64,000 nucleotides of DNA from Microbacterium sp. RURRCA19A (lineage in GTDB: Bacteria; Actinomycetota; Actinomycetes; Actinomycetales; Microbacteriaceae). The stretch covers positions 1,116,001 through 1,180,000 of the forward strand of contig NZ_FTNQ01000001.1 of NCBI RefSeq assembly GCF_900156455.1. The letters run 5' to 3'. Numbering within the stretch: the stretch's first letter is position 1; the number at the start of each line of letters is the position of its first letter. The position numbers and the translations under genes were made by a program. A model generated the notes under the pieces. That model worked only from the letters and a program-made list of their open reading frames with translations, was not told the DNA's origin and did no database searches. Positions 50,236 through 62,193 of this stretch are shown piece after piece.

Positions 50236-51447
50236 TCAATCGGTGACGCTCGGCCTTCCCACAGTGACGGAGGCCGCAACGGTGCCGACGGTGACATCGG
50301 TCCGCGTCTTCACGGTGAAGAGCGCCGCTTGCGCCAGTCCGTGGCTGCTGGGCTCGCTGACTCCGGCGGCGTTGGCGTTGACGTAGTACTGCCCGGCGCC
50401 CAGATGCACTTCCCCGACGCGGAGATCGATGCTGACCTGTCCGCTGATCGGCTCCAGTCGATGCTCCAGCAGTTCGGTGTTGGACGCCAGCACCATGTGC
50501 CCGAGGGGTGTGTCGATACTGAATCCGAGTTCCCACCGTTCGATGGGCTTCATGGAGTCCACGTGGACACGGATCGTCAGGGGGTCGCCCTCGTGCACGA
50601 CCTTCGTGCGCGTACCGTCGTCGGCGAGGAGTTCGACGCGCTTCACCTGGATCGGGTGCACCGTCTGCTCGGGCGGGGCCTCCCCCACGCGTCGCCCCTC
50701 GAGGACGTCGCGAAGAGCGCCGATGGCGTCGCGGGTTTCGCCGTCGAAGACCACGGCACCGTCCTTGAGGACGATCCCCCGGTCACAGAGCTCGGCGACC
50801 TGCTGGGCCGAATGGCTCACGAGGATGATTGTGCGCCCCTGGGCGCGGAACTCCGCGATGCGGTCCATGCACTTGCGCTGGAAGGTCTCGTCACCGACCG
50901 CGAGCACTTCGTCCACGAGGAGGACATCGGGGTCGGTGTGGATCGCGACCGCGAACGCCAGGCGAACGTACATCCCCGACGAGTAGAACTTCACGGCGGT
51001 GTCGATGAAGTCCCCGATACCGCTGAAGTCGACGATCGCGTCGAACTCGCGGTCGATCTCCTCGCGAGTCATTCCGAGGATCGAGGCGTTGAGGTAGACG
51101 TTCTCCCGACCGCTGAGGTCGGGGTGGAAGCCCGCGCCGAGTTCGAGTAGCGCCGCCATGCGTCCCCGAGTCTCGACGGTCCCGGAGGTCGGCGACAGGA
51201 TCCCGCCGATGAGCTTGAGCAGCGTGCTCTTCCCCGATCCGTTGGCCCCGAGGAGCCCGACCGTCGTCCCTGCTTCGATCGTGAGCGACACGTCGTCGAC
51301 GGCGACGAAGTCGCGGCGGAAGGACTTGCCGAGCCTCCCGAGATGGACGATGCGGTCCTTCAGGCTGTTGTCCTGCCGCACGCGGAAGTGCTTGGACACG
51401 GCGTTCAGGCGGACGATGTCGGGGGCGGTGGTCGCGGTTTCCGTCAT
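50236..51447 (-). CDS. polysaccharide ABC transporter ATP-binding protein with C-terminal Wzt domain
   Basis: A 403-residue ABC ATPase. Walker A GANGSGKS is at 67-74, the signature is YSSGMYVRLAFA and Walker B LLVDEVLAVGD. Residues from about 260 form a predicted beta-sandwich (Wzt C-terminal type), which in O-antigen exporters recognises the capped non-reducing end. This differs from the short ATPase at 27571 and suggests export of a different, probably rhamnose-rich, polymer. It overlaps the permease stop (ATGA) and ends the rfbA-rgpF-rgpF-wzm-wzt operon. Confidence 0.93.
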   Translation of the reverse strand: MTETATTAPDIVRLNAVSKHFRVRQDNSLKDRIVHLGRLGKSFRRDFVAVDDVSLTIEAGTTVGLLGANGSGKSTLLKLIGGILSPTSGTVETRGRMAALLELGAGFHPDLSGRENVYLNASILGMTREEIDREFDAIVDFSGIGDFIDTAVKFYSSGMYVRLAFAVAIHTDPDVLLVDEVLAVGDETFQRKCMDRIAEFRAQGRTIILVSHSAQQVAELCDRGIVLKDGAVVFDGETRDAIGALRDVLEGRRVGEAPPEQTVHPIQVKRVELLADDGTRTKVVHEGDPLTIRVHVDSMKPIERWELGFSIDTPLGHMVLASNTELLEHRLEPISGQVSIDLRVGEVHLGAGQYYVNANAAGVSEPSSHGLAQAALFTVKTRTDVTVGTVAASVTVGRPSVTD

Positions 51448-52373
51448 CACAGCTCCTGAGCGAAGTTGCCCTGCATCCGCGTGAACACGCGGTGCGAGAT
51501 TACGAGCAGCACCAGTCCGATCGCACCGGCGATCAGCATGCGCAGCGCGAGGTTGCCCGGGTAGTCCTCGGGAGTGCCCGCGCCCCAGAAAGCCCGGTGG
51601 AATCCGAGGACGGCGATCGTCAGAGGATTCGCCGCGTAGAACTCCAGGATCCACTCCGGCAGCGAAAAGCGCGTGATGACGTCCTGGACCATTTTCCAGG
51701 AGTAGACGATGGGCGCACTCCACATCGCGAGCATCAGCACGACCTCGGTGAGGTACTGGATGTCGCGCAAGTAGACATTCAAGGCCGACAGCAGCAGGCC
51801 GATGGCGAGGCCGTAGATCGTGATGAGGATCACCGACGGGAAGAACCAGAGCATCTCGACCGGCGTGGGAAGCGCACGGAAGATGAGTGCGGCCACGAAC
51901 AGCACACCCAGCTGAACGAGGAACATGAATGCCGCGCCGCCGATGCTGGCGAGGGGGAAGATCTCTCGGGGCAGATAGATCTTCTTGACGAGCCCGCCGT
52001 TCTGGAGGATCGACCCCGTCGCACCGAAGATCATGTCGTTGAAGAACACGTAGAGCGTCAGTCCCGAGAAGAGGTAGACGGCGAAATTGTCGATCCCCTC
52101 CGCCGCCCGGAGGAATTGCCCCAGGACGATGAAGTACATGAGGAACTGGATGAGCGGTCGAATGACCGTCCAGAGGAATCCCAGAAAGCTATCCCGATAC
52201 CGCGCCTGCAGATCGCGACGCACGAGGAGGTTCAGGAGGTCACGGCGCGCGTAGATCTCACCGACCTTGCCGAAACGACCGGTCGTGCGACGACCGTGCG
52301 GATCGACGACCGCGTAGGGCTCGGCGGAGATCCGCGCGAACCTCGCCTCGGTCTCTGCGCTCATCGCTGCCAT
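51447..52373 (-). CDS. polysaccharide ABC transporter permease (Wzm type)
   Basis: A 308-residue ABC-2 permease with six hydrophobic segments. A cytoplasmic N-terminus of about 50 residues leads to LLVRRDLQARYRDSFLGFLW, then IYLPREIFPLASIGG and MWSAPIVYSWKMV, all typical of Wzm. It pairs with the ATPase downstream and lies 13 bp after the rgpF gene in the same direction. The start is ATG 52373; ATG 52364 is also possible. Neighbouring rhamnosyltransferases suggest it exports a rhamnan-type polymer. Confidence 0.92.
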   Translation of the reverse strand: MAAMSAETEARFARISAEPYAVVDPHGRRTTGRFGKVGEIYARRDLLNLLVRRDLQARYRDSFLGFLWTVIRPLIQFLMYFIVLGQFLRAAEGIDNFAVYLFSGLTLYVFFNDMIFGATGSILQNGGLVKKIYLPREIFPLASIGGAAFMFLVQLGVLFVAALIFRALPTPVEMLWFFPSVILITIYGLAIGLLLSALNVYLRDIQYLTEVVLMLAMWSAPIVYSWKMVQDVITRFSLPEWILEFYAANPLTIAVLGFHRAFWGAGTPEDYPGNLALRMLIAGAIGLVLLVISHRVFTRMQGNFAQEL

Positions 52374-52386
52374 CCTCGTCGTCCTG

Positions 52387-54312
52387 TCATCGCCTTTTCC
52401 GTCGTCCTGCCGTCAGGACCGTGTTGATCCATCTCCCCGGCCGTCTCACCGGATCCATCAGGCGCCGCAGCCGGTGGACCGTTCCCATGTGGTTCGCCCG
52501 CATATACATTCGCAAGAAGTCTCTGCCGGATCCTGAGCCGACGAACCCGACTTCTCGCAGCCGGTCGATCTTCTCGTGCATGTAGCCCGGAATGGTTGCT
52601 GACATCTCGTCGAGCTTGAAATCCAGGGCCGTGTGACTGATCGCCGCATAATCGGGCGCGACGATCGTTCGCGAATGGAACCCCTGCTCGCCCGCCGCGG
52701 AAGCGGGCATGCGTTCCAGGATATGCGCCAATCCGCCGTCTTGATACGCATCGGCACCCCCGAAGTCGGAGTACTTCCAAGGTCGCTCGACGAGCAGACG
52801 CAGGGCCTCCGGACGCGCGAAGAACATGGAGCCGTAGGGAGCGAGCGGCGACACGTCATCCAAGGGAACGCGGATTCCCATCTGATCCGCGAGCAGTTCG
52901 AATCCGGGCTTGTTCGCCCACCACGCACGGCCGAGCGTCGGGTAGCCGATGTGGATCATCGGGGGGAACGCCAGCCCCAGCCCAGGTTCCCGCTGGAACA
53001 GCCCGAGTACGCGTGAGCTGTGCGCGGGGTCGTGCAGAAGATTCAAGAACTGCTGCTCTCGGAAGTGCGTCCCGACGTTGTAACCGTCCTGCGGCGTCTT
53101 CTTGCTGTGCAGCTTGACCACGAGGTCGTAGCGCTCCGACAGCAGGACATCGCGGCATCCGATGAGGAAAGCGCTCTGGTCACGACCGTCGTTCGACTCC
53201 ACCACTCGAACGGACACCTCGCCCCGCTCTCCGGGAATCGCATCGATGTGGGCGCGGATGCGTTCGGCGCGTGCGGAGTCGGGCGTGGTGACGACGAGGT
53301 CGTACGGCACCGGCAAGGTGTCGGTCCGTTCGAGGATCTCTGGCGTCATCTCGTCATAGAAGATATGGGCGATGACCACCACGCGAAGCGGATCGGACGA
53401 GTTGTACGGCGCGTGGTCGGGTCCGATCACCTCCATCAACCCCGCATCGGCGTTGAGCACCTTGGGGGCGACATTCCGCGCCAGGTTCGCGAGGGCGATC
53501 CGGATGGGGTATCCGCCGGTCGCCGCGGCCTCGAGCGCCCACCGTCCGATGACCGCGTAACGATCGAGGAACGGCGGCGAGTGGAAGAACACTCGACGCT
53601 TGAGAACGGGGCAACCGTCCTGGATCAGCGCTTCGGGCGCGAGCAGGGACGCGTTCGAAGTGCCGTACTGCTCCGACTCGAAGGCGACACCGTCCACGAA
53701 ACCGGCATCGCGGAAGGCCTCGGTGAAGACGAGCTCGTGGCCGATCACGGCGTCGCGGTAGCCGTCCATCCGCTGCAGATCACGCCAATACCGGACCCAT
53801 CGCTCGGACGTGAACATCGACCGACGCACCGCGATCCAGAACGACTGCAGGTGGTGCGGAACCCCGGCGGATCCGGTGAACATGTGCCAGGGCTCCGCCG
53901 CGTGGTCGGTCATGCCCCAGAAGTCGATCTCCAGCGCATCCATACGCTCGAACACCGGCCCATACGGACGCACCGGACCGAACCACGTGTCATTCGTCAG
54001 AACGACCTCGTCGAACTCCAACACACCCGCCCCGACATGATCCAACGCATCCTTGTGCGCCCAAATGTCGAACCCGACATTCTCACGCACCAGCACCTCA
54101 TCGGACACCGGCTCCAACCGCTCCCGACCCTCCGGCGTCAACTTCCCGTTGACCACCACCAGAATCCGCGCCGCATGCTCCCGCAACCCCGCCAGCGCAT
54201 GGACGACGTACTCATCCACACCACCACGACGGTCATACACCACATACACCACGAGCCGACGACCACCGTCGGGGAAGACGGCGGCCCGCCTCGCTTCGGG
54301 GACGGCACTCAT
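52387..54312 (-). CDS. rhamnan synthesis F (RgpF) family protein, copy 1
   Basis: A 641-residue protein of the RgpF family, linked to rhamnosyl transfer in streptococcal and O-antigen rhamnans. Two related halves are visible: an N-terminal one with VVYVVYDRRGGVDEYVVHAL and ENVGFDIWAHKDAL, and a C-terminal one with HSKKTPQDGYNVGTHFREQ and GSMFFARPEALRLLV. Residues about 16-138 are identical, at DNA level too, to copy 2, while the rest is clearly diverged. That shared block uses GTG, GGT, CGT and TTG codons more than its surroundings. ATG 54312 overlaps the copy 2 stop (ATGA). Confidence 0.88.
   Translation of the reverse strand: MSAVPEARRAAVFPDGGRRLVVYVVYDRRGGVDEYVVHALAGLREHAARILVVVNGKLTPEGRERLEPVSDEVLVRENVGFDIWAHKDALDHVGAGVLEFDEVVLTNDTWFGPVRPYGPVFERMDALEIDFWGMTDHAAEPWHMFTGSAGVPHHLQSFWIAVRRSMFTSERWVRYWRDLQRMDGYRDAVIGHELVFTEAFRDAGFVDGVAFESEQYGTSNASLLAPEALIQDGCPVLKRRVFFHSPPFLDRYAVIGRWALEAAATGGYPIRIALANLARNVAPKVLNADAGLMEVIGPDHAPYNSSDPLRVVVIAHIFYDEMTPEILERTDTLPVPYDLVVTTPDSARAERIRAHIDAIPGERGEVSVRVVESNDGRDQSAFLIGCRDVLLSERYDLVVKLHSKKTPQDGYNVGTHFREQQFLNLLHDPAHSSRVLGLFQREPGLGLAFPPMIHIGYPTLGRAWWANKPGFELLADQMGIRVPLDDVSPLAPYGSMFFARPEALRLLVERPWKYSDFGGADAYQDGGLAHILERMPASAAGEQGFHSRTIVAPDYAAISHTALDFKLDEMSATIPGYMHEKIDRLREVGFVGSGSGRDFLRMYMRANHMGTVHRLRRLMDPVRRPGRWINTVLTAGRRKRR
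53796..53855. repeat. 60-bp direct repeat, copy 1 (small block)
   Basis: Identical to 55745-55804 (offset 1949 bp), the same offset as the 368-bp block; it codes for the SFWIAVRRSMFTSERW region. The 44 bp between the two blocks differ. Confidence 0.9.
53900..54267. repeat. 368-bp direct repeat, copy 1
   Basis: By eye, base-for-base identical to 55849-56216. It covers codons about 16-138 of rgpF copy 1. Flanking DNA diverges at once on both sides. Confidence 0.92.
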
Positions 54313-56258
54313 GAGCGGGCTCCCTTGACCAGGTGACGGGCCGTCGACGCACCGGCGCGGGCCACGCGCAGGATCGCACGGGCACCCCGACCGATCGGAT
54401 GCATCACCGGATCGACACGGCGCACGAACCCTGCGTGGTTCGTCTTCATGTACATCCGGAAGAACGCCACCGCTCCGCCGATCCCCCACCACCCGGCTCG
54501 GTGAACGAACTGGATTTGCTCGACAGGATAACCGGGGAGGTTAACGGCGAGCTGATCGATCTTGTACTCCAGCGACAGGTGGGTGAGGCCGGCATGCCCA
54601 GGTGTGAGAACCGTGCGCGCATGCAGCCCCTCCTCCCCCGCAGCGGCGGCGACGAGACGCTCCAGCACGCGACGGATGTCGGGGATCCGTTTGTGCGTGG
54701 CGTCCCGGAAGTCGGCGTACGTCCAGTCCTTGGACAACAGCGGGCGCAGGCCCTCCGGGCGTCCGACCCACATGCCCCCCAGGGGCGCCAAGGGGGTGAC
54801 ACCGTCCAGCGGCACTCGGATGCCGAGGTCTTCGGCGACGTCGTGCCCCCGCCCGCGGTACCAGGACCACCCCTCGCCGGTCACGGCGTACCCCGTCTGG
54901 ATGGGGGGAGGAAACACGACCCCGAGCCCGCGCTCACGAACGAACAAGGCGAGGAGGTTGACGATGTACTCGGGGCTTCCGAGGAGGTTGTCACGGGTGT
55001 AGCGGCGGAAGTAGTCGGACACGGTTCGACCGCGCCGGACAGGAAGCCGGTCGTGCACCTTGACGAACACGTCGTACTGTCCGCCCTCCAGTTCCGCCCG
55101 GCATCCGATGAGGAAGGCGCTCATGTCGCGCCCGTCGTGGGACGGGACGAGGCGGACCTCGGCCTTGCGCAGTCGAGACGTCTGCGCGCCGAGCATCCGT
55201 TCCAACTCGGGCACGAGATCGGCGTCCGAGGTGGTCACGATGGCGTCCACCGGGGCGGGGAACCACCCCAGGCGCGCGATCAGATCTGCCGCCGACTCGG
55301 AACCGGTGGCGTGGACGACCACCAGGACCCGGAGACCGGTCGGGTCGTCGGCGGTCGCCACCGTCGTGCGCGGCAGGATGTCGAGCATCGCCAGGTTCGT
55401 GTTGATCACCTTCGCCTGCACGGTGCGCGCGAGGTTGTCGAGGATCAGCGCCGTCGGATACCCGTGCTCCTCGACGTTGTCCATGATCGATCGGCCGATC
55501 ACGGCGTGCCGATCGAGGAACGGCGGCCAGTGGAAGAAGGGTCGCCGCTTCAACAGCGGGCACCCGTCGTCCATGAGGAGAGTCGGGTTGAACAGGGCCG
55601 GATGATCGGTCGGGTAGTCGTCGGAGGCGAACGCGACGGCGGGGCGGAAGCCGTTGCGGACGAACGTCTCGGTGAAAACCGTCTCATGCTTGAGGACGGC
55701 GTCGAAGTAAGACGGCATCTCGGGAAGCTCACGCCAGTAGCGGGCCCATCGCTCGGACGTGAACATCGACCGACGCACCGCGATCCAGAACGACTGCAGG
55801 TGGTAGTGCATCACACCCGTACCGGTGAAGGGGTTCGGGACTTCGCGGGCGTGGTCGGTCATGCCCCAGAAGTCGATCTCCAGCGCATCCATACGCTCGA
55901 ACACCGGCCCATACGGACGCACCGGACCGAACCACGTGTCATTCGTCAGAACGACCTCGTCGAACTCCAACACACCCGCCCCGACATGATCCAACGCATC
56001 CTTGTGCGCCCAAATGTCGAACCCGACATTCTCACGCACCAGCACCTCATCGGACACCGGCTCCAACCGCTCCCGACCCTCCGGCGTCAACTTCCCGTTG
56101 ACCACCACCAGAATCCGCGCCGCATGCTCCCGCAACCCCGCCAGCGCATGGACGACGTACTCATCCACACCACCACGACGGTCATACACCACATACACCA
56201 CGAGCCGACGACCACCCGCAGGAAACATCACCGCACGCTCCACATCAGCCCCCGTCAC
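54309..56258 (-). CDS. rhamnan synthesis F (RgpF) family protein, copy 2
   Basis: A 649-residue RgpF-family protein, tandem with copy 1 and probably adding rhamnose to the same polymer. The N-terminal half is identical to copy 1 over about residues 15-137. The C-terminal half (KVHDRLPVRRGRTVSDYFRR; GGMWVGRPEGLRPLL) is only a distant match, so acceptor or linkage specificity may differ. The start is uncertain: I chose GTG 56258 because the protein then aligns end to end with copy 1 (12 versus 13 residues before the FP-GGRR motif). GTG 56303, ATG 56228 and a frame running into rfbA are alternatives. Confidence 0.85.
   Translation of the reverse strand: MTGADVERAVMFPAGGRRLVVYVVYDRRGGVDEYVVHALAGLREHAARILVVVNGKLTPEGRERLEPVSDEVLVRENVGFDIWAHKDALDHVGAGVLEFDEVVLTNDTWFGPVRPYGPVFERMDALEIDFWGMTDHAREVPNPFTGTGVMHYHLQSFWIAVRRSMFTSERWARYWRELPEMPSYFDAVLKHETVFTETFVRNGFRPAVAFASDDYPTDHPALFNPTLLMDDGCPLLKRRPFFHWPPFLDRHAVIGRSIMDNVEEHGYPTALILDNLARTVQAKVINTNLAMLDILPRTTVATADDPTGLRVLVVVHATGSESAADLIARLGWFPAPVDAIVTTSDADLVPELERMLGAQTSRLRKAEVRLVPSHDGRDMSAFLIGCRAELEGGQYDVFVKVHDRLPVRRGRTVSDYFRRYTRDNLLGSPEYIVNLLALFVRERGLGVVFPPPIQTGYAVTGEGWSWYRGRGHDVAEDLGIRVPLDGVTPLAPLGGMWVGRPEGLRPLLSKDWTYADFRDATHKRIPDIRRVLERLVAAAAGEEGLHARTVLTPGHAGLTHLSLEYKIDQLAVNLPGYPVEQIQFVHRAGWWGIGGAVAFFRMYMKTNHAGFVRRVDPVMHPIGRGARAILRVARAGASTARHLVKGARS
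55745..55804. repeat. 60-bp direct repeat, copy 2 (small block)
   Basis: Partner of 53796-53855, inside rgpF copy 2. Confidence 0.9.
55849..56216. repeat. 368-bp direct repeat, copy 2
   Basis: Partner of 53900-54267, covering codons about 15-137 of rgpF copy 2. Identity ends where 56217 (C) faces 54268 (G). Confidence 0.92.
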
Positions 56259-56319
56259 CGCATCCCACGGATCCTCGGATGCGGCAGAGGGCGTCGACCG
56301 CACACAGAACAGAGAGAGC

Positions 56320-57204
56320 TTAAAGCTGACCGCCGACGCTTCCCTGTGCGAGAGCCTTGAGGAGGTAGGCACCGTAGCCGCTCTTCACGAGGGGTTCGGC
56401 GCGCTCGCGGAGTTCCTCGTCGGTGAGGAAACCCATGCGCCACGCGACTTCTTCGGGGCAACCGATGGACAGGCCCTGGCGCTTCTCGACGGTCCGGATG
56501 AAGTCCGTTGCTTCGGCGAGGGAGTCGAAGGTGCCGGTGTCCAGCCAGGCGGTGCCGCGCGGCAGCAACTCGACGCGGAGGCGGCGCTGCTCCAGGTACG
56601 TGCGGTTGACGTCCGTGATCTCGAGCTCGCCGCGCGGGGACGGGGAGAGCCCGCGGGCGATCTCGATCACGTCGTTGTCGTAGAAGTACAGGCCCGGGAC
56701 GGCGTAATCGCTCTTCGGTGACGCCGGCTTCTCTTCGAGGGAGACCACGCGTCCCGCGGAGTCGAACTCCACCACGCCGTACGCCGTCGGGTCCGCGACG
56801 CGGTAGCCGAACACCACGCCGCCGTCGAGCTCCGTGTACTGCCGCAGCCGCGTGCCCATGCCCTGGCCGTAGAAGATGTTGTCGCCGAGCACCAGTGCGA
56901 CCGGTTCGGCGCCGATGTGTTCTTCACCGAGGAGGAAGGCTTGGGCGAGTCCGTCGGGTGAGGGCTGCACCTTGTAGGTGAGGGAGATGCCGAAACGCGA
57001 TCCGTCTCCGAGCAGCCGTTGGAACTGCTCGGAGTCCTGCGGGGTCGTGATGATGAGGATGTCGCGGATGCCGGCCAGGATCAGCGTCGAGAGCGGGTAG
57101 TAGATCATCGGCTTGTCGTACACCGGGACGAGCTGCTTGGAGACGCCGAGCGTGATGGGGTGCAGTCGCGACCCCGTTCCGCCCGCAAGGATGATGCCAC
57201 GCAT
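56320..57204 (-). CDS. rfbA: glucose-1-phosphate thymidylyltransferase
   Basis: A 294-residue nucleotidyltransferase making dTDP-glucose from dTTP and glucose-1-phosphate, the first step of dTDP-L-rhamnose synthesis. The N-terminal [13 protein letters not shown], the [18 protein letters not shown] signature, [10 protein letters not shown] and [12 protein letters not shown] are all present. ATG 57204 has GGGGAG upstream; the open frame runs a little further without family similarity. It heads the minus-strand operon with two rgpF genes and wzm/wzt, and is divergent from rmlB. Confidence 0.97.
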
Positions 57205-57275
57205 TGTTCGATTCTCCCCGACCCGCCCGTTCCCCGCCAACCTGGGACCCGCCGGACCTCCCTGGTGAGCCGAGT

Positions 57276-58283
<1,008 letters not shown>

Positions 58284-58285
58284 CC

Positions 58286-59704
58286 ATGGCGACGGAGTTC
58301 GGTAAGAACCTCACCGTCACGACCACCCCGATCCCCGGGCTGATCGTGCTGGACCTGCCCGTGCACGGCGACGCCCGCGGATGGTTCAAAGAGAACTGGC
58401 AACGGCAGAAGATGACCGCCCCGGGAATCGACCTCCCCGACTTCGGCCCCGTGCAGAACAACATCTCCTTCAACGACGCCGTCGGCACCACCCGCGGCAT
58501 CCACGCCGAACCCTGGGACAAATACGTCTCCGTCGCCACCGGACGCATCTTCGGCGCCTGGGTCGACCTCCGCGAAGGCGACACCTTCGGCGCCGTCTAC
58601 ACCACCGAGATCGACCCCTCCCGGGCGATCTTCGTCCCTCGCGGAGTCGGCAACTCCTACCAGACCCTCGAACCCGACACCGCCTACACCTACCTCGTCA
58701 ACGACCACTGGTCGCCCACCGCGACCTACACCTTCCTCAACCTCGCCGACGAGACCGCCGCGATTGACTGGCCCATCCCCCTGGACACCGTCGAGATCAG
58801 CGAGAAGGACAAGAACCACCCCCGCCTCGCCGACGTCACCCCCATGGGCCCGAGGAAGATCCTCGTCACCGGCGCGAACGGGCAACTCGGGCGCGCCCTC
58901 CGCGAAGAGTTCGGCGACCACCCCTGGGTCGAATACACCACCCGGGACACCCTCGACCTGACCTCCCCCGACCTCCCCGCCGCCCGCCGCTGGCGCGACT
59001 ACGGCACCATCATCAACGCCGCCGCGTACACCAAGGTCGACACCGCCGAAACCCCCGAAGGACGCAGCCACGCCTGGGCCGCGAACGTCACCGCCGTCGC
59101 CGCCCTCGCCCGCATCGCCACCGCCAACGACATCACCCTCGTCCACATCTCCAGCGACTACGTCTTCGACGGCACCAAACACGGCGCCTACACCCCAGAA
59201 GACCCGCTCTCCCCCCTCGGCGTCTACGGACAGACCAAAGCCGCCGGCGACGCGATCGTCTCCACCGTCCCCCACCACTACATCCTCCGCACCAGCTGGG
59301 TCATCGGAGACGGCAACAACTTCGTCCGCACCATGGCCACCCTCGCCGAACGCGGCATCAACCCCAGAGTCGTCAACGACCAAACCGGACGACTCACCTT
59401 CACCACCGACATCGCCACCACCACCCGCACCCTCCTCGACACCCGCGCCCCCCACGGCACCTACAACATCACCAGCGACGGAGAACCCCAAACCTGGTAC
59501 GACATCGCCCGCGACGTCTACCACCTCACCGGACACGACCCCGACCGCGTCACCGGCGTCACCACCGACGAATACTTCACCGACGCCACCGGCCCCATCG
59601 CCCCCCGACCCCGAAACAGCATCCTCGAACTCGCAGCAACCCGAGACGCCGGCATCCCCCTCGGGGACGGGCGTCGCCGACTCAAGGACTACCTCACGTC
59701 CTGA
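58286..59704 (+). CDS. RmlC-RmlD fusion: dTDP-4-dehydrorhamnose 3,5-epimerase and reductase
   Basis: A 472-residue bifunctional protein finishing dTDP-L-rhamnose synthesis. Residues 1 to about 185 are a cupin epimerase with H73 in RGIHAEPWDKY and VDLREGDTFG. From residue 190 an SDR reductase begins: ILVTGANGQLGRAL (192-205), HISSDYVFDG and YGQTKAAGD (Tyr-Lys pair). The cupin half has VPRGVGNSYQTLE where stand-alone RmlC enzymes have a His-containing GFAHGF-type loop, so its second catalytic group is less clear. ATG 58286 is preceded by AAGGG; GTG 58280 is an alternative. Codon usage is extremely C-ending. Confidence 0.93.
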   Translation: MATEFGKNLTVTTTPIPGLIVLDLPVHGDARGWFKENWQRQKMTAPGIDLPDFGPVQNNISFNDAVGTTRGIHAEPWDKYVSVATGRIFGAWVDLREGDTFGAVYTTEIDPSRAIFVPRGVGNSYQTLEPDTAYTYLVNDHWSPTATYTFLNLADETAAIDWPIPLDTVEISEKDKNHPRLADVTPMGPRKILVTGANGQLGRALREEFGDHPWVEYTTRDTLDLTSPDLPAARRWRDYGTIINAAAYTKVDTAETPEGRSHAWAANVTAVAALARIATANDITLVHISSDYVFDGTKHGAYTPEDPLSPLGVYGQTKAAGDAIVSTVPHHYILRTSWVIGDGNNFVRTMATLAERGINPRVVNDQTGRLTFTTDIATTTRTLLDTRAPHGTYNITSDGEPQTWYDIARDVYHLTGHDPDRVTGVTTDEYFTDATGPIAPRPRNSILELAATRDAGIPLGDGRRRLKDYLTS

Positions 59705-59823
59705 CGTATCGACTCGACGTGCTCGGGCATCTCGCCCACCATCGGCACGCGGGAGCCCCGTCGTCACCTCAGTGCATCGTCGAGGCCACCCGCGAGTGCC
59801 GAGTGCCGACAGTTCCGACGTGC

Positions 59824-62193
59824 TCAGCGGATCTCAGTCATCACGTTCCACTGCGTACCGACGACGCGACTGCCCAGCCAGCCGCCTCGGCCATCGCCGC
59901 GATACATCACCAGATCACCGTTCACCAGCCGCCCCATCACGTCGGGACCACCCTTGCCGTCGAAGTCCCCCGTCGCCGCCACCGGGTCGAACACGTTCCA
60001 CCCGGTCCCAATCTGATCGATCGTGCCCCACCCGCCGAACCCGTTCGTCCCGTAAGACCACAGTGTTCCATCCGACTTTCGAACGAGCAGATCGTCCGCG
60101 CCTTTGCCGCGTAGATCCCCTCCAGCGGACAACGACGTCACCACCGACCACCCCGAACCGATGACTTCTCCGCGGCCGGTGACCCATCCGCCTGTTCCGT
60201 CTCCGCGGTAGAGCCAGAGGAGCCCCTTGCTATCGCGAGCGACGACGTCCAGCCTTCGGTCTCCGTTGAAGTCGATACCGCCGGTCACGAGACTGAGGTC
60301 CTGCCACCCGCTGCCGATCACCGTGGGCGCATCGAACGTTCCGTCGCCTCGGCCCCGCCAGAGTTCGAACACTCCGTCGAGCGTGATGCGAGCGATATCG
60401 TCATGACCATCACCCGTGAAGTCGCCGAGAGGAACCACCCGGCTCGTTCCCCATGTCCGAGACACAGTCAGAGGCTGTTTCCACCCCCCGCCACCGTCTC
60501 CCGGATAAATCGTGAGCACGCCGCTCGTCGAGACGGTCACAACGTCCGATTGACCGTCTCCGGTAAGGTCCCCCGCCCCGCCGGGGAATGCCTTCTTCCA
60601 GCCAGGGCTCGCACCCTCGCTGGTCACCGTCCGCATCACGGACCATCCGCTGCCCACCGGTCCGCTCGACCGAACGAAGCGCCCGGTGTTGTCGCCCACA
60701 AATGACCACAGGAGCCCGCTCGAGTCCACGGCGAGCAGATCGGCGACGCCGTCGCCGGTGAAATCCCCCGGCATGGTGATCGATGTGAAGCCACTCCAAC
60801 CTGTCCCGAGCGACGTGCGACCGGATTGCCATCCCCCGGTGCCGTCGCCGCGATAGAGCCACAATTCCCCGTTCGCGTCGCGCCCGAGCAAATCCTGCTT
60901 GCCGTCTCCGGTGACGTCAGCACCCCCTACAACAGCGGTGAAGTTCGCCCATCCGCTCCCGACGACCCGCGGTTCGGCGAACGTGCCGTATCCCGTGCCC
61001 TTCCAGAAAAGCAGGAGCCCCGCTGTGTTCGTGGTGTAGACGTCCGGAATTCCGTCACCGTCCGCGTCGCTGGCGGCGGTAATTGCTACCGCGTCCGACC
61101 AATCAACCGGGATGCGGCGAGCCGGAAGATCATCGGACCTCGTCTCAAGGGGACGCAGCCACACCTTTTTCGAGCTATCCACCACGATGATGTCGCGACG
61201 CTGGTCACCGTCGAAGTCGCCGACGGCGAGGACACGGTCCGTGGCCACGACGCCGCCCGCCGTCCGGACTCTTTCGCCCCAGGTGTTGTTCTTGAACGGG
61301 TAGGAGAATATCTGACCACTTCCATCGATGGCGACGACCGAGGGGTCAACCCCGTACCGAGGGACCGGCGGCTGGTACCGCGTCGATCCGAACCAGTCGG
61401 TAAAGATGCGCCAGAAGTTCCGGTTGCCGTACGCCGAGCACGAGTCGCCCGTGCCGTACAGGTTCGCTAGTGCAGCGGCATTGGGCACGTACGGCGTGTA
61501 GATGTACAGGCCGGCCGTGGCAGCGTTCTCGATGTAGACGCGTTGCGTGCCGCAGCTGGTCGTCGGATTGAAGAGGATGTTGTTCCAACGCCCCGCCTGG
61601 TACCCCCACCACGTCGGGTTGAGACGGTAGACCTCGAACTGCCGCGCGGCGTAGTAGACCTGGTAGAAGAAACCCTGGGTCGCGGGGTCGCACGGTGCGG
61701 TATCGGGGCATCCCTGGCCGGTGGCGGCCTTGTACTGGAAGTCCTCGGGCCACGTCGAGGAGACGAGCCGCTGCTCCTTCTCGAGCAGCACCAGCAACGC
61801 CTTCTGGCTGATACCGCAGGAAATCCCCACCTTGGCGATGATCGTCGCGGCGCTCTCGTTCGCCGCACCCGCGTATCCGTTGCAGTACTTGTCCGCCGGT
61901 CGGTCGTCGGTGTTCTGCCGGTAGTCCTTGAGACAGGTGTAACCGCTCCGGCAGTTCGGCACCTGCTTCTGCAGGAAAGCCTGGATCTCCGACGCGCTCG
62001 AGGCGGAACCGTCGTAGAACACGGCGTCATCGATGATGTTCCCCGGGTTCCAGTCGGCCGCATTCGCCGCGGATGCGGAGGCGACCGGCGCCACCGTGGC
62101 AGGGAGCGCGACCAGGAGGGCTGCCGCACAGACCCAGGCGGCGAGGACGGCGAGGGCGGCGAGGGCGGCGCGAGGGCGGGACCGTGCGGTCAC
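59824..62193 (-). CDS. secreted FG-GAP/VCBS repeat protein with N-terminal lysozyme-like domain
   Basis: A 789-residue exported protein. A signal peptide (LAALAVLAAWVCAAALLVAL, cleavage near ASA) leads to a domain of about 230 residues rich in Cys and Trp: VPNCRSGYTCLKDYRQNT, CGISQKALLVLLEKEQRLV and SAYGNRNFWRIFTDWFGSTR. That domain is common in actinobacterial envelope proteins and its KALLVLLEKEQ helix recalls a transglycosylase catalytic region; activity is unproven. Nine DxDGDG-type FG-GAP repeats then form a beta-propeller (for example DFDGDQRRDI, DVTGDGKQDL, DFTGDGHDDI), probably binding calcium and glycans. GTG 62193 overlaps the stop of the lipoprotein gene. Confidence 0.85.
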   Translation of the reverse strand: MTARSRPRAALAALAVLAAWVCAAALLVALPATVAPVASASAANAADWNPGNIIDDAVFYDGSASSASEIQAFLQKQVPNCRSGYTCLKDYRQNTDDRPADKYCNGYAGAANESAATIIAKVGISCGISQKALLVLLEKEQRLVSSTWPEDFQYKAATGQGCPDTAPCDPATQGFFYQVYYAARQFEVYRLNPTWWGYQAGRWNNILFNPTTSCGTQRVYIENAATAGLYIYTPYVPNAAALANLYGTGDSCSAYGNRNFWRIFTDWFGSTRYQPPVPRYGVDPSVVAIDGSGQIFSYPFKNNTWGERVRTAGGVVATDRVLAVGDFDGDQRRDIIVVDSSKKVWLRPLETRSDDLPARRIPVDWSDAVAITAASDADGDGIPDVYTTNTAGLLLFWKGTGYGTFAEPRVVGSGWANFTAVVGGADVTGDGKQDLLGRDANGELWLYRGDGTGGWQSGRTSLGTGWSGFTSITMPGDFTGDGVADLLAVDSSGLLWSFVGDNTGRFVRSSGPVGSGWSVMRTVTSEGASPGWKKAFPGGAGDLTGDGQSDVVTVSTSGVLTIYPGDGGGGWKQPLTVSRTWGTSRVVPLGDFTGDGHDDIARITLDGVFELWRGRGDGTFDAPTVIGSGWQDLSLVTGGIDFNGDRRLDVVARDSKGLLWLYRGDGTGGWVTGRGEVIGSGWSVVTSLSAGGDLRGKGADDLLVRKSDGTLWSYGTNGFGGWGTIDQIGTGWNVFDPVAATGDFDGKGGPDVMGRLVNGDLVMYRGDGRGGWLGSRVVGTQWNVMTEIR

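Follow-up and report, generated by a model that had tools for sequence, protein, structure and literature searches.

Probable recurrent conversion of the N-terminal module of tandem rgpF paralogues in Microbacterium, with a possible strand-specific bias

In bacteria, recombining stretches of DNA gain a compositional bias through GC-biased gene conversion. Paralogous genes may also be kept alike by concerted evolution, as for tuf, the release factors and the 26 genes of PMC6053082, where, according to the available part of that paper, copies within a genome are more alike than copies of different genomes, silent sites included, and the process recurs across species. Two tandem rgpF genes with the same properties are described here in a 64,000-nucleotide (nt) stretch of DNA from Microbacterium sp. 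RURRCA19A (NCBI RefSeq assembly GCF_900156455.1, contig NZ_FTNQ01000001.1, positions 1,116,001 to 1,180,000; this whole stretch is called the window). Unlike the genes of PMC6053082, as far as that source sets them out, the present case concerns a single domain in a tandem pair of glycosyltransferases, with a common tract edge and a strand-asymmetric composition; the terms 'glycosyl' and 'GC content' are absent from the main text of that paper. The locus also differs from GC-biased conversion, since the bias separates G+T from A+C on one strand and the GC content of the tracts is not raised. Conversion of Mycobacterium tuberculosis paralogues, as portrayed in the available part of the preprint PMC13061034, is likewise intragenomic, occurs in a bacterium with the NucS protein and alters the substitution spectrum; however, it is enriched in T>C/A>G changes, its tracts are short (median 101 bp) and that part reports no strand asymmetry.

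RgpF is required for rhamnan synthesis in Streptococcus mutans, as stated in the part of PMC4931226 available. The streptococcal loci and the one in the window are alike in having a PF05045 member beside genes for deoxythymidine diphosphate (dTDP)-rhamnose and an ATP-binding cassette (ABC) exporter; they differ in that Microbacterium carries two tandem copies. The two genes and their shared tracts are the following.

52387..54312, minus strand: rgpF A, the downstream gene, PF05045; 641 residues from ATG 54312, a start taken from the overlap with the stop of B; the open reading frame reaches upstream to 54492.
54309..56372, minus strand: rgpF B, the upstream gene, PF05045; open reading frame of 687 residues, true start uncertain and probably further in.
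53900..54267, minus strand: tract in A, codons 16-138, exact copy of 55849-56216.
55849..56216, minus strand: tract in B, exact copy of 53900-54267; likely donor, a direction drawn from the identities of relatives and a tree.
53796..53855, minus strand: second exact run in A, 60 nt, codons 153-173, equal to 55745-55804.
55745..55804, minus strand: second exact run in B, 60 nt, equal to 53796-53855.

Both products are members of the PF05045 RgpF family (E 2.1e-118 and 1.8e-104; 396.6 and 350.7 bits, cut-off 25), and they cover positions 1-498 and 1-501 of the 503 in the profile. The most likely start of A is the ATG at 54312, which overlaps the upstream stop and places the tract at codons 16-138 of 641. 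The original prediction had noticed, in otherwise diverged paralogues, a long identical patch and a shorter one at the same spacing; both are exact at an offset of 1949, and the longer is an uninterrupted run of precisely 368 nt. By our own arithmetic, a run of this length at an identity of ~0.7 per site has a chance of ~10^-57. The tract is present exactly twice in the window's genome, where no third copy was found. Silent sites proved identical as well, as had been proposed: A and B agree at 50/51 fourfold sites in codons 16-138 and at 29/79 over codons 139-640 (7/12 in codons 139-215, 4/14 in 216-300 and 18/53 in 301-640), while protein identity outside the tract is 60%, 46% and 39% in the same three intervals. 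Synonymous divergence along the pair is far lower in the patch than in the rest, rather than equal to it, and selection on the protein is excluded as an explanation by the identity of the silent sites.

The same pattern recurs across the genus, in a comparison set with one genome per species. rgpF was found in 63 of 198 Microbacterium genomes with the Pfam profile and in 115 of 366 with a search by the B protein; 77 genomes have at least two B-protein matches, and 75 tandem pairs were analysed, G257 (without coordinates) and G301 (second gene off the contig) being omitted. Among these, the A gene of M. sp. 5K110 consists of two separate contig pieces and L142 is without the start of its B gene; the identical genomes G261/G262 (L124/L125) and the near-identical G072/G341 (L079/L149) were retained. 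In codon alignments, long exact N-terminal tracts are present in 15 of the 75 pairs, hereafter called homogenised, with longest runs of 961, 709, 629, 625, 617, 615, 611, 600, 542, 474, 368, 346, 307, 225 and 210 nt; no exact run of 30 nt was found in the alignments of the other 60. Judged by the runs and identities of each pair, the tracts have discrete edges, beyond which the two genes are diverged. In 10 of the 15 pairs the end of the tract, or of its last exact run, falls at residue 205-215; in the others it falls at ~137 (5K110), 138 (window), 245, 312 and 317. The AlphaFold2 model of A (mean predicted local distance difference test score, pLDDT, 84.9) has a first glycosyltransferase-A (GT-A)-like core running from strand 19-25 to strand 207-211, and the common edge would coincide with the end of this predicted core. 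By fold both halves of A resemble GT-A enzymes, the top Foldseek matches being two-domain transferases at low template modelling score (TM-score), and a sequence search returned no solved structure at E 0.1; such fold matches outline domains, not function.

As a separate observation, codons 16-138 are merely 21-46% identical between A and B in 37 of the 60 unhomogenised pairs (for example L067, L097 and L158), and in 33 of those 37 the N-terminal domains are less alike than the C-terminal parts, opposite to the homogenised pairs. In an order-wide sample, 27 of 396 genomes match the B protein, 7 of them Microbacterium including the window's own; two genomes outside the genus (G538, G660) have more than one match. 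An rgpF locus like that of Microbacterium is also present in L058 (JACEFY010000002.1), a record under the name of Stenotrophomonas maltophilia that is probably contaminated or mislabelled.

Trees (FastTree) of the two parts of the protein disagree. Over residues 16-215, A and B of one genome are sisters in 13/15 homogenised genomes, and in the window and 5K110 they are sisters over residues 16-138; over residues 236-640 this holds in 1/14 genomes (L142), and the C-terminal tree joins A with A and B with B for L066+L155, L119+L147 and L077+L132. The alignment of both genes in related genomes that had been suggested thus gave tracts grouped by genome and C-terminal halves grouped by paralogue. 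Mapped on the C-terminal tree of A, the homogenised state must have changed 7 times, and strong branches force at least 3 of these changes. The nearest tract-bearing relative, 5K110, has a tract ~7% different from that of the window, and the two copies differ at 0 sites in the window and at 1/378 in 5K110; conversion has therefore continued in both lineages since their split. A single recent event is rejected, since tracts vary among relatives and the copies inside a genome are identical or nearly so. Paralogues within a genome are closer than orthologues, silent sites are homogenised and edges are discrete, as in concerted evolution, and conversion itself is well supported. The original prediction of a recent gene conversion is strongly supported as to conversion and refined as to timing, the process being chronic and not one recent event (15/75 pairs and the divergence from 5K110).

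As to direction, the window tract shares.73-.84 of its residues with the B proteins of six unhomogenised relatives and.57-.66 with their A proteins, whereas the codons of A after 215 are A-type (.75-.84). The tract is grouped with B genes (support 91/86), and an A-type history is rejected by the approximately unbiased test at p-AU.048, a narrow rejection that weighs against too firm a statement. On these comparisons B most likely overwrote A in the window's lineage. Codons 139-215 of A (53668-53898) are unlike both A and B of six close relatives (residue identity.52-.61), and the later codons are A-type; this suggests an older replacement, now diverging. Overall, we hold it to be probable that old tandem rgpF paralogues have undergone chronic, region-limited conversion of the N-terminal module, with the C-terminal parts kept distinct, and that in the window's lineage it ran from B to A.

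It had also been proposed that the patch could let the locus shuffle rhamnosyltransferase halves or delete one gene by recombination. Shuffling was not borne out: the N-terminal module is homogenised and the C-terminal parts stay apart. For deletion, the search for a strain with one fused rgpF yielded one candidate. M. enclense has a single rgpF (L162:2999-4906) that resembles B in its first codons and on its upstream side and A over codons 139-640, a B head with an A tail; no second rgpF match was found in its assembly, a draft of ~150 contigs. Unequal crossing-over within the tract would be expected to leave just such a gene, which supports an event of this kind and does not prove it. Its fourfold sites still have a G+T share of.80, as expected if the partner was lost lately. 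By comparison, all 15 single-copy rgpF genes are unskewed, with approximate fourfold G+T values of.29-.62, since their N-terminal codons were taken ungapped from residue 34 on.

This G+T richness is the second property of the tracts, and it had escaped the earlier reading of the patch. In the window it appears as three islands.

53761..54510, minus strand: island covering the A tract, rich in G+T on the minus strand (plus-strand z -5.1).
55771..56460, minus strand: island covering the B tract, rich in G+T on the minus strand (plus-strand z -5.4).
58351..60210, minus strand: third G+T-rich (minus strand) island, over rmlCD and the downstream edge, z -6.0 on the plus strand.

In 360-nt windows, islands with |z| of at least 4 are found at the rgpF N-termini of 15/15 homogenised loci and nowhere in the 60 unhomogenised loci (mostly 9-11 kilobases each); the largest |z| in 17 sampled 20-kilobase stretches of the window's genome is 3.96. 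The stretch with this value (z -3.96) also holds, at L178:7709-8025, a 208-nt repeat (91% identity, spacing 110 nt) that has stop codons in the frames read and is the single other repeat of at least 100 nt at 90% identity in a self-repeat scan of the 17 stretches.

In homogenised A genes the base shares at the fourfold sites of codons 16-138 are A.01, C.14, G.66 and T.20, versus A.07, C.45, G.37 and T.11 in unhomogenised ones; mean fourfold G+T in A genes is.86 (minimum.73) versus.48 (maximum.68). In the same genes T takes.56 versus.20 of the twofold pyrimidine codons and G 1.00 versus.82 of the twofold purine codons, and the Leu TTG share rises from.07 to.40 in the homogenised class. When the fourfold sites of A genes are pooled, G/(G+T) has the same value in the two classes (.77); the pressure thus seems to act between keto and amino bases. 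GC-biased conversion was rejected as the cause, since tract GC (.625 versus.642 and.681) is not raised and on the sense strand C falls while G and T rise. In the comparison with six unskewed B relatives, 32-41 silent differences of the window tract go toward G/T and 2-7 go the other way; in codons 216-640 of B, taken as control, 46-57 go toward and 51-61 away. The skew of the window's tract arose in place, and it ends near the tract edge. Across genomes, the skew change-point lies 3-38 codons inside the tract and follows its end with rho.79 over 30 genes (the two from each genome not being independent) and.73 over 15 A genes (p.002), the tract ends having been entered by hand from the per-pair runs.

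A tentative explanation is that the skew is an accumulated conversion bias, produced by the rejection of mismatches by NucS. In the parts of the sources available, NucS prefers G-T, G-G and T-T mismatches, its action on A-C being notably weak, and its loss raises homeologous recombination (PMC8228993); in vivo, its recognition of G-G and T-T is roughly equal to that of G-T (PMC11551767). If the heteroduplex always paired the antisense strand of the donor with the sense strand of the recipient, for example on the lagging-strand template, a transfer replacing G or T of the sense strand by A or C would create a G-T, G-G or T-T mismatch and be rejected, while the reverse transfer would give A-C, A-A or C-C, which NucS would spare. 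Exchanges of G with T and of A with C would produce mixed mismatches and little bias, and the sense strand of the tract would gain G and T without a choice between them. NucS is encoded in the window's genome and in the 14/14 other homogenised genomes; no match to MutS was found in the window's genome, the one genome searched for it. From the positions of dnaA and rgpF, the latter is co-directional with replication in 5/5 complete homogenised genomes, so that the required pairing would be that of an antisense fragment on the lagging-strand template, which is consistent with the proposal and does not prove it. Broader and more doubtful is a general strand-specific, 'keto-biased' conversion, by which recombination hotspots of one polarity would drift to G+T on one strand because NucS vetoes heteroduplexes. 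As far as the search reached, a strand-specific bias tied to conversion appears new, conversion as such being known; neither the strand signature nor this locus was found described in the openly licensed literature searched.

Part of what counts against a bias tied to conversion comes from the genes upstream of rgpF, listed here with the rest of the locus.

50236..51723, minus strand: exporter ATPase with a Wzt C-terminal domain, PF00005 and PF14524; an open reading frame of uncertain start.
51447..52373, minus strand: ABC-2 type exporter membrane protein, PF01061.
56320..57240, minus strand: rmlA-like nucleotidyltransferase upstream of rgpF B, PF00483.
57288..58283, plus strand: rmlB-like dehydratase, PF16363 and PF01370.
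58283..59704, plus strand: fused rmlC-rmlD (rmlCD), single copy in the genome, PF00908 and PF04321.

The surroundings, with rmlA, rmlB and fused rmlCD upstream and the ABC exporter downstream, fit a putative rhamnose polysaccharide locus, and the neighbouring rml and exporter genes agree with a predicted rhamnosyltransferase role of the RgpF proteins in rhamnan synthesis. A gene with FG-GAP repeats (59824-62193, minus strand) directly adjoins the locus.

Several observations weigh against the NucS proposal. The rmlCD gene is as skewed as the tracts (z -6.0, on the same minus strand) yet has no second copy in the genome, which means that the skew is not confined to intragenomic conversion; indeed, with its downstream edge it forms the strongest strand-asymmetric island of the window. 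On its sense strand, 81-121 silent differences from 22 relatives go toward A/C and 8-17 away, and 48 and 18, respectively, in the comparison with 5K110, itself skewed. The rmlCD skew could stem from exchange between strains. Although coded on the same strand, rmlB of L139 is mildly G+T-rich and rmlCD A+C-rich. Certain codons do not move as they should: Phe TTC (.93 vs.95) and Thr C (.48 vs.49) are static, and the G:T balance shifts per amino acid, the T share going from.44 to.57 in Gly and from.18 to.07 in Ala, few sites being available in each case. Co-directionality is a weak argument, since the locus may simply be syntenic, and a fixed polarity is an assumption. Finally, paralogous regions of M. 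tuberculosis are enriched in T>C/A>G, and NucS activity is suggested to be reduced during recombination, according to the part of the preprint available (PMC13061034). Two further loci may be mentioned in this context: an island at rmlCD is also present in 5K110 (L094), and L135 has a similar codon bias without an island.

A serious rival, though on balance an unlikely one, takes the G+T richness as the cause of conversion and not its result: since RecA is held most firmly by TGG-rich single strands, such tracts would pair and convert more readily and would stay homogenised or be selected for it. RecA filaments are indeed most stable on TGG repeats, as described in the part of PMC3763553 available; GTG and GGT are preferred among the codons of the tracts (Val G.72, Gly T.51); Phe TTC, as observed, would gain nothing from becoming TTT; and the coincidence of skew and homogenisation (15/15 and 0/60) is predicted equally well. 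However, the largest rises, in Pro CCG (.94) and Ala GCG (.83), create no TGG, silent-site selection or self-promotion of the richer copy would be needed in several lineages, and the single-copy rmlCD is skewed too. The RecA preference could also act together with NucS.

Equally improbable is a mutagenesis linked to recombination, in which tract DNA that is single-stranded or made by repair synthesis would mutate asymmetrically, by damage or an error-prone polymerase, and conversion would spread these mutations to the two genes. The silent differences do include C to T and A to G changes, and the skew tracks the tract, as this would require; but C to G changes are at least as many as C to T in 10/12 comparisons, which is impossible by deamination, and the pooled G:T balance is unchanged. 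Deamination of the exposed strand as sole cause was rejected, covering C to T and A to G and not the large C to G share. A transcription-linked strand bias was rejected as a general account, the rmlCD skew being opposite in sign relative to its own coding strand.

Selection on nucleotides or codons of the N-terminal module, for translation, messenger RNA structure or an overlapping signal, could keep the copies alike and G+T-rich, and the Phe and Thr exceptions do look like codon choice. We regard this as distinctly improbable: the same module is unskewed in the 60 unhomogenised pairs and in the 15 single-copy genes, exact identity that includes neutral sites needs copying, and tracts vary between species. 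Still less probable is the spread among species of a foreign cassette of unusual codon usage that replaced the N-terminus of both genes. At fourfold sites, the homogenised species listed are more alike in the N-terminal parts than in the C-terminal part, to some extent through the shared skew; however, the window tract falls among the B genes of its relatives, which are unskewed (91/86), the skew sits on a vertically inherited protein and the homogenised label needs the 7 changes given above. An assembly artefact, with one true copy collapsed or duplicated into both genes, is scarcely credible: the window's genome is a 15-contig draft and a contig of the draft 5K110 ends inside the tract, but the two copies of 5K110 are not fully identical (one site differs), assembly has no bearing on the composition signature, and the tracts as a class are not artefacts because five single-contig genomes (G004, G045, G119, G321 and G359) carry them.

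To our knowledge, the effect of NucS-type mismatch repair on recombination and base composition has been little explored in Actinobacteria. For conversion of the rgpF N-terminal module, and for the NucS bias proposed to accompany it, the locus offers a natural contrast within one genus (15 homogenised pairs versus 60 that are not), with a measurable signature and predictions for each mismatch. It also carries a warning, in that neither the rates at silent sites nor the codon usage of tracts like these can be read as codon selection. If the proposal is true, G+T islands would map recombination hotspots in NucS bacteria, both within genomes, as in the rgpF tracts, and between strains, as at rmlCD; and if the signature is general, islands of base composition would reveal recombination hotspots that are otherwise invisible.

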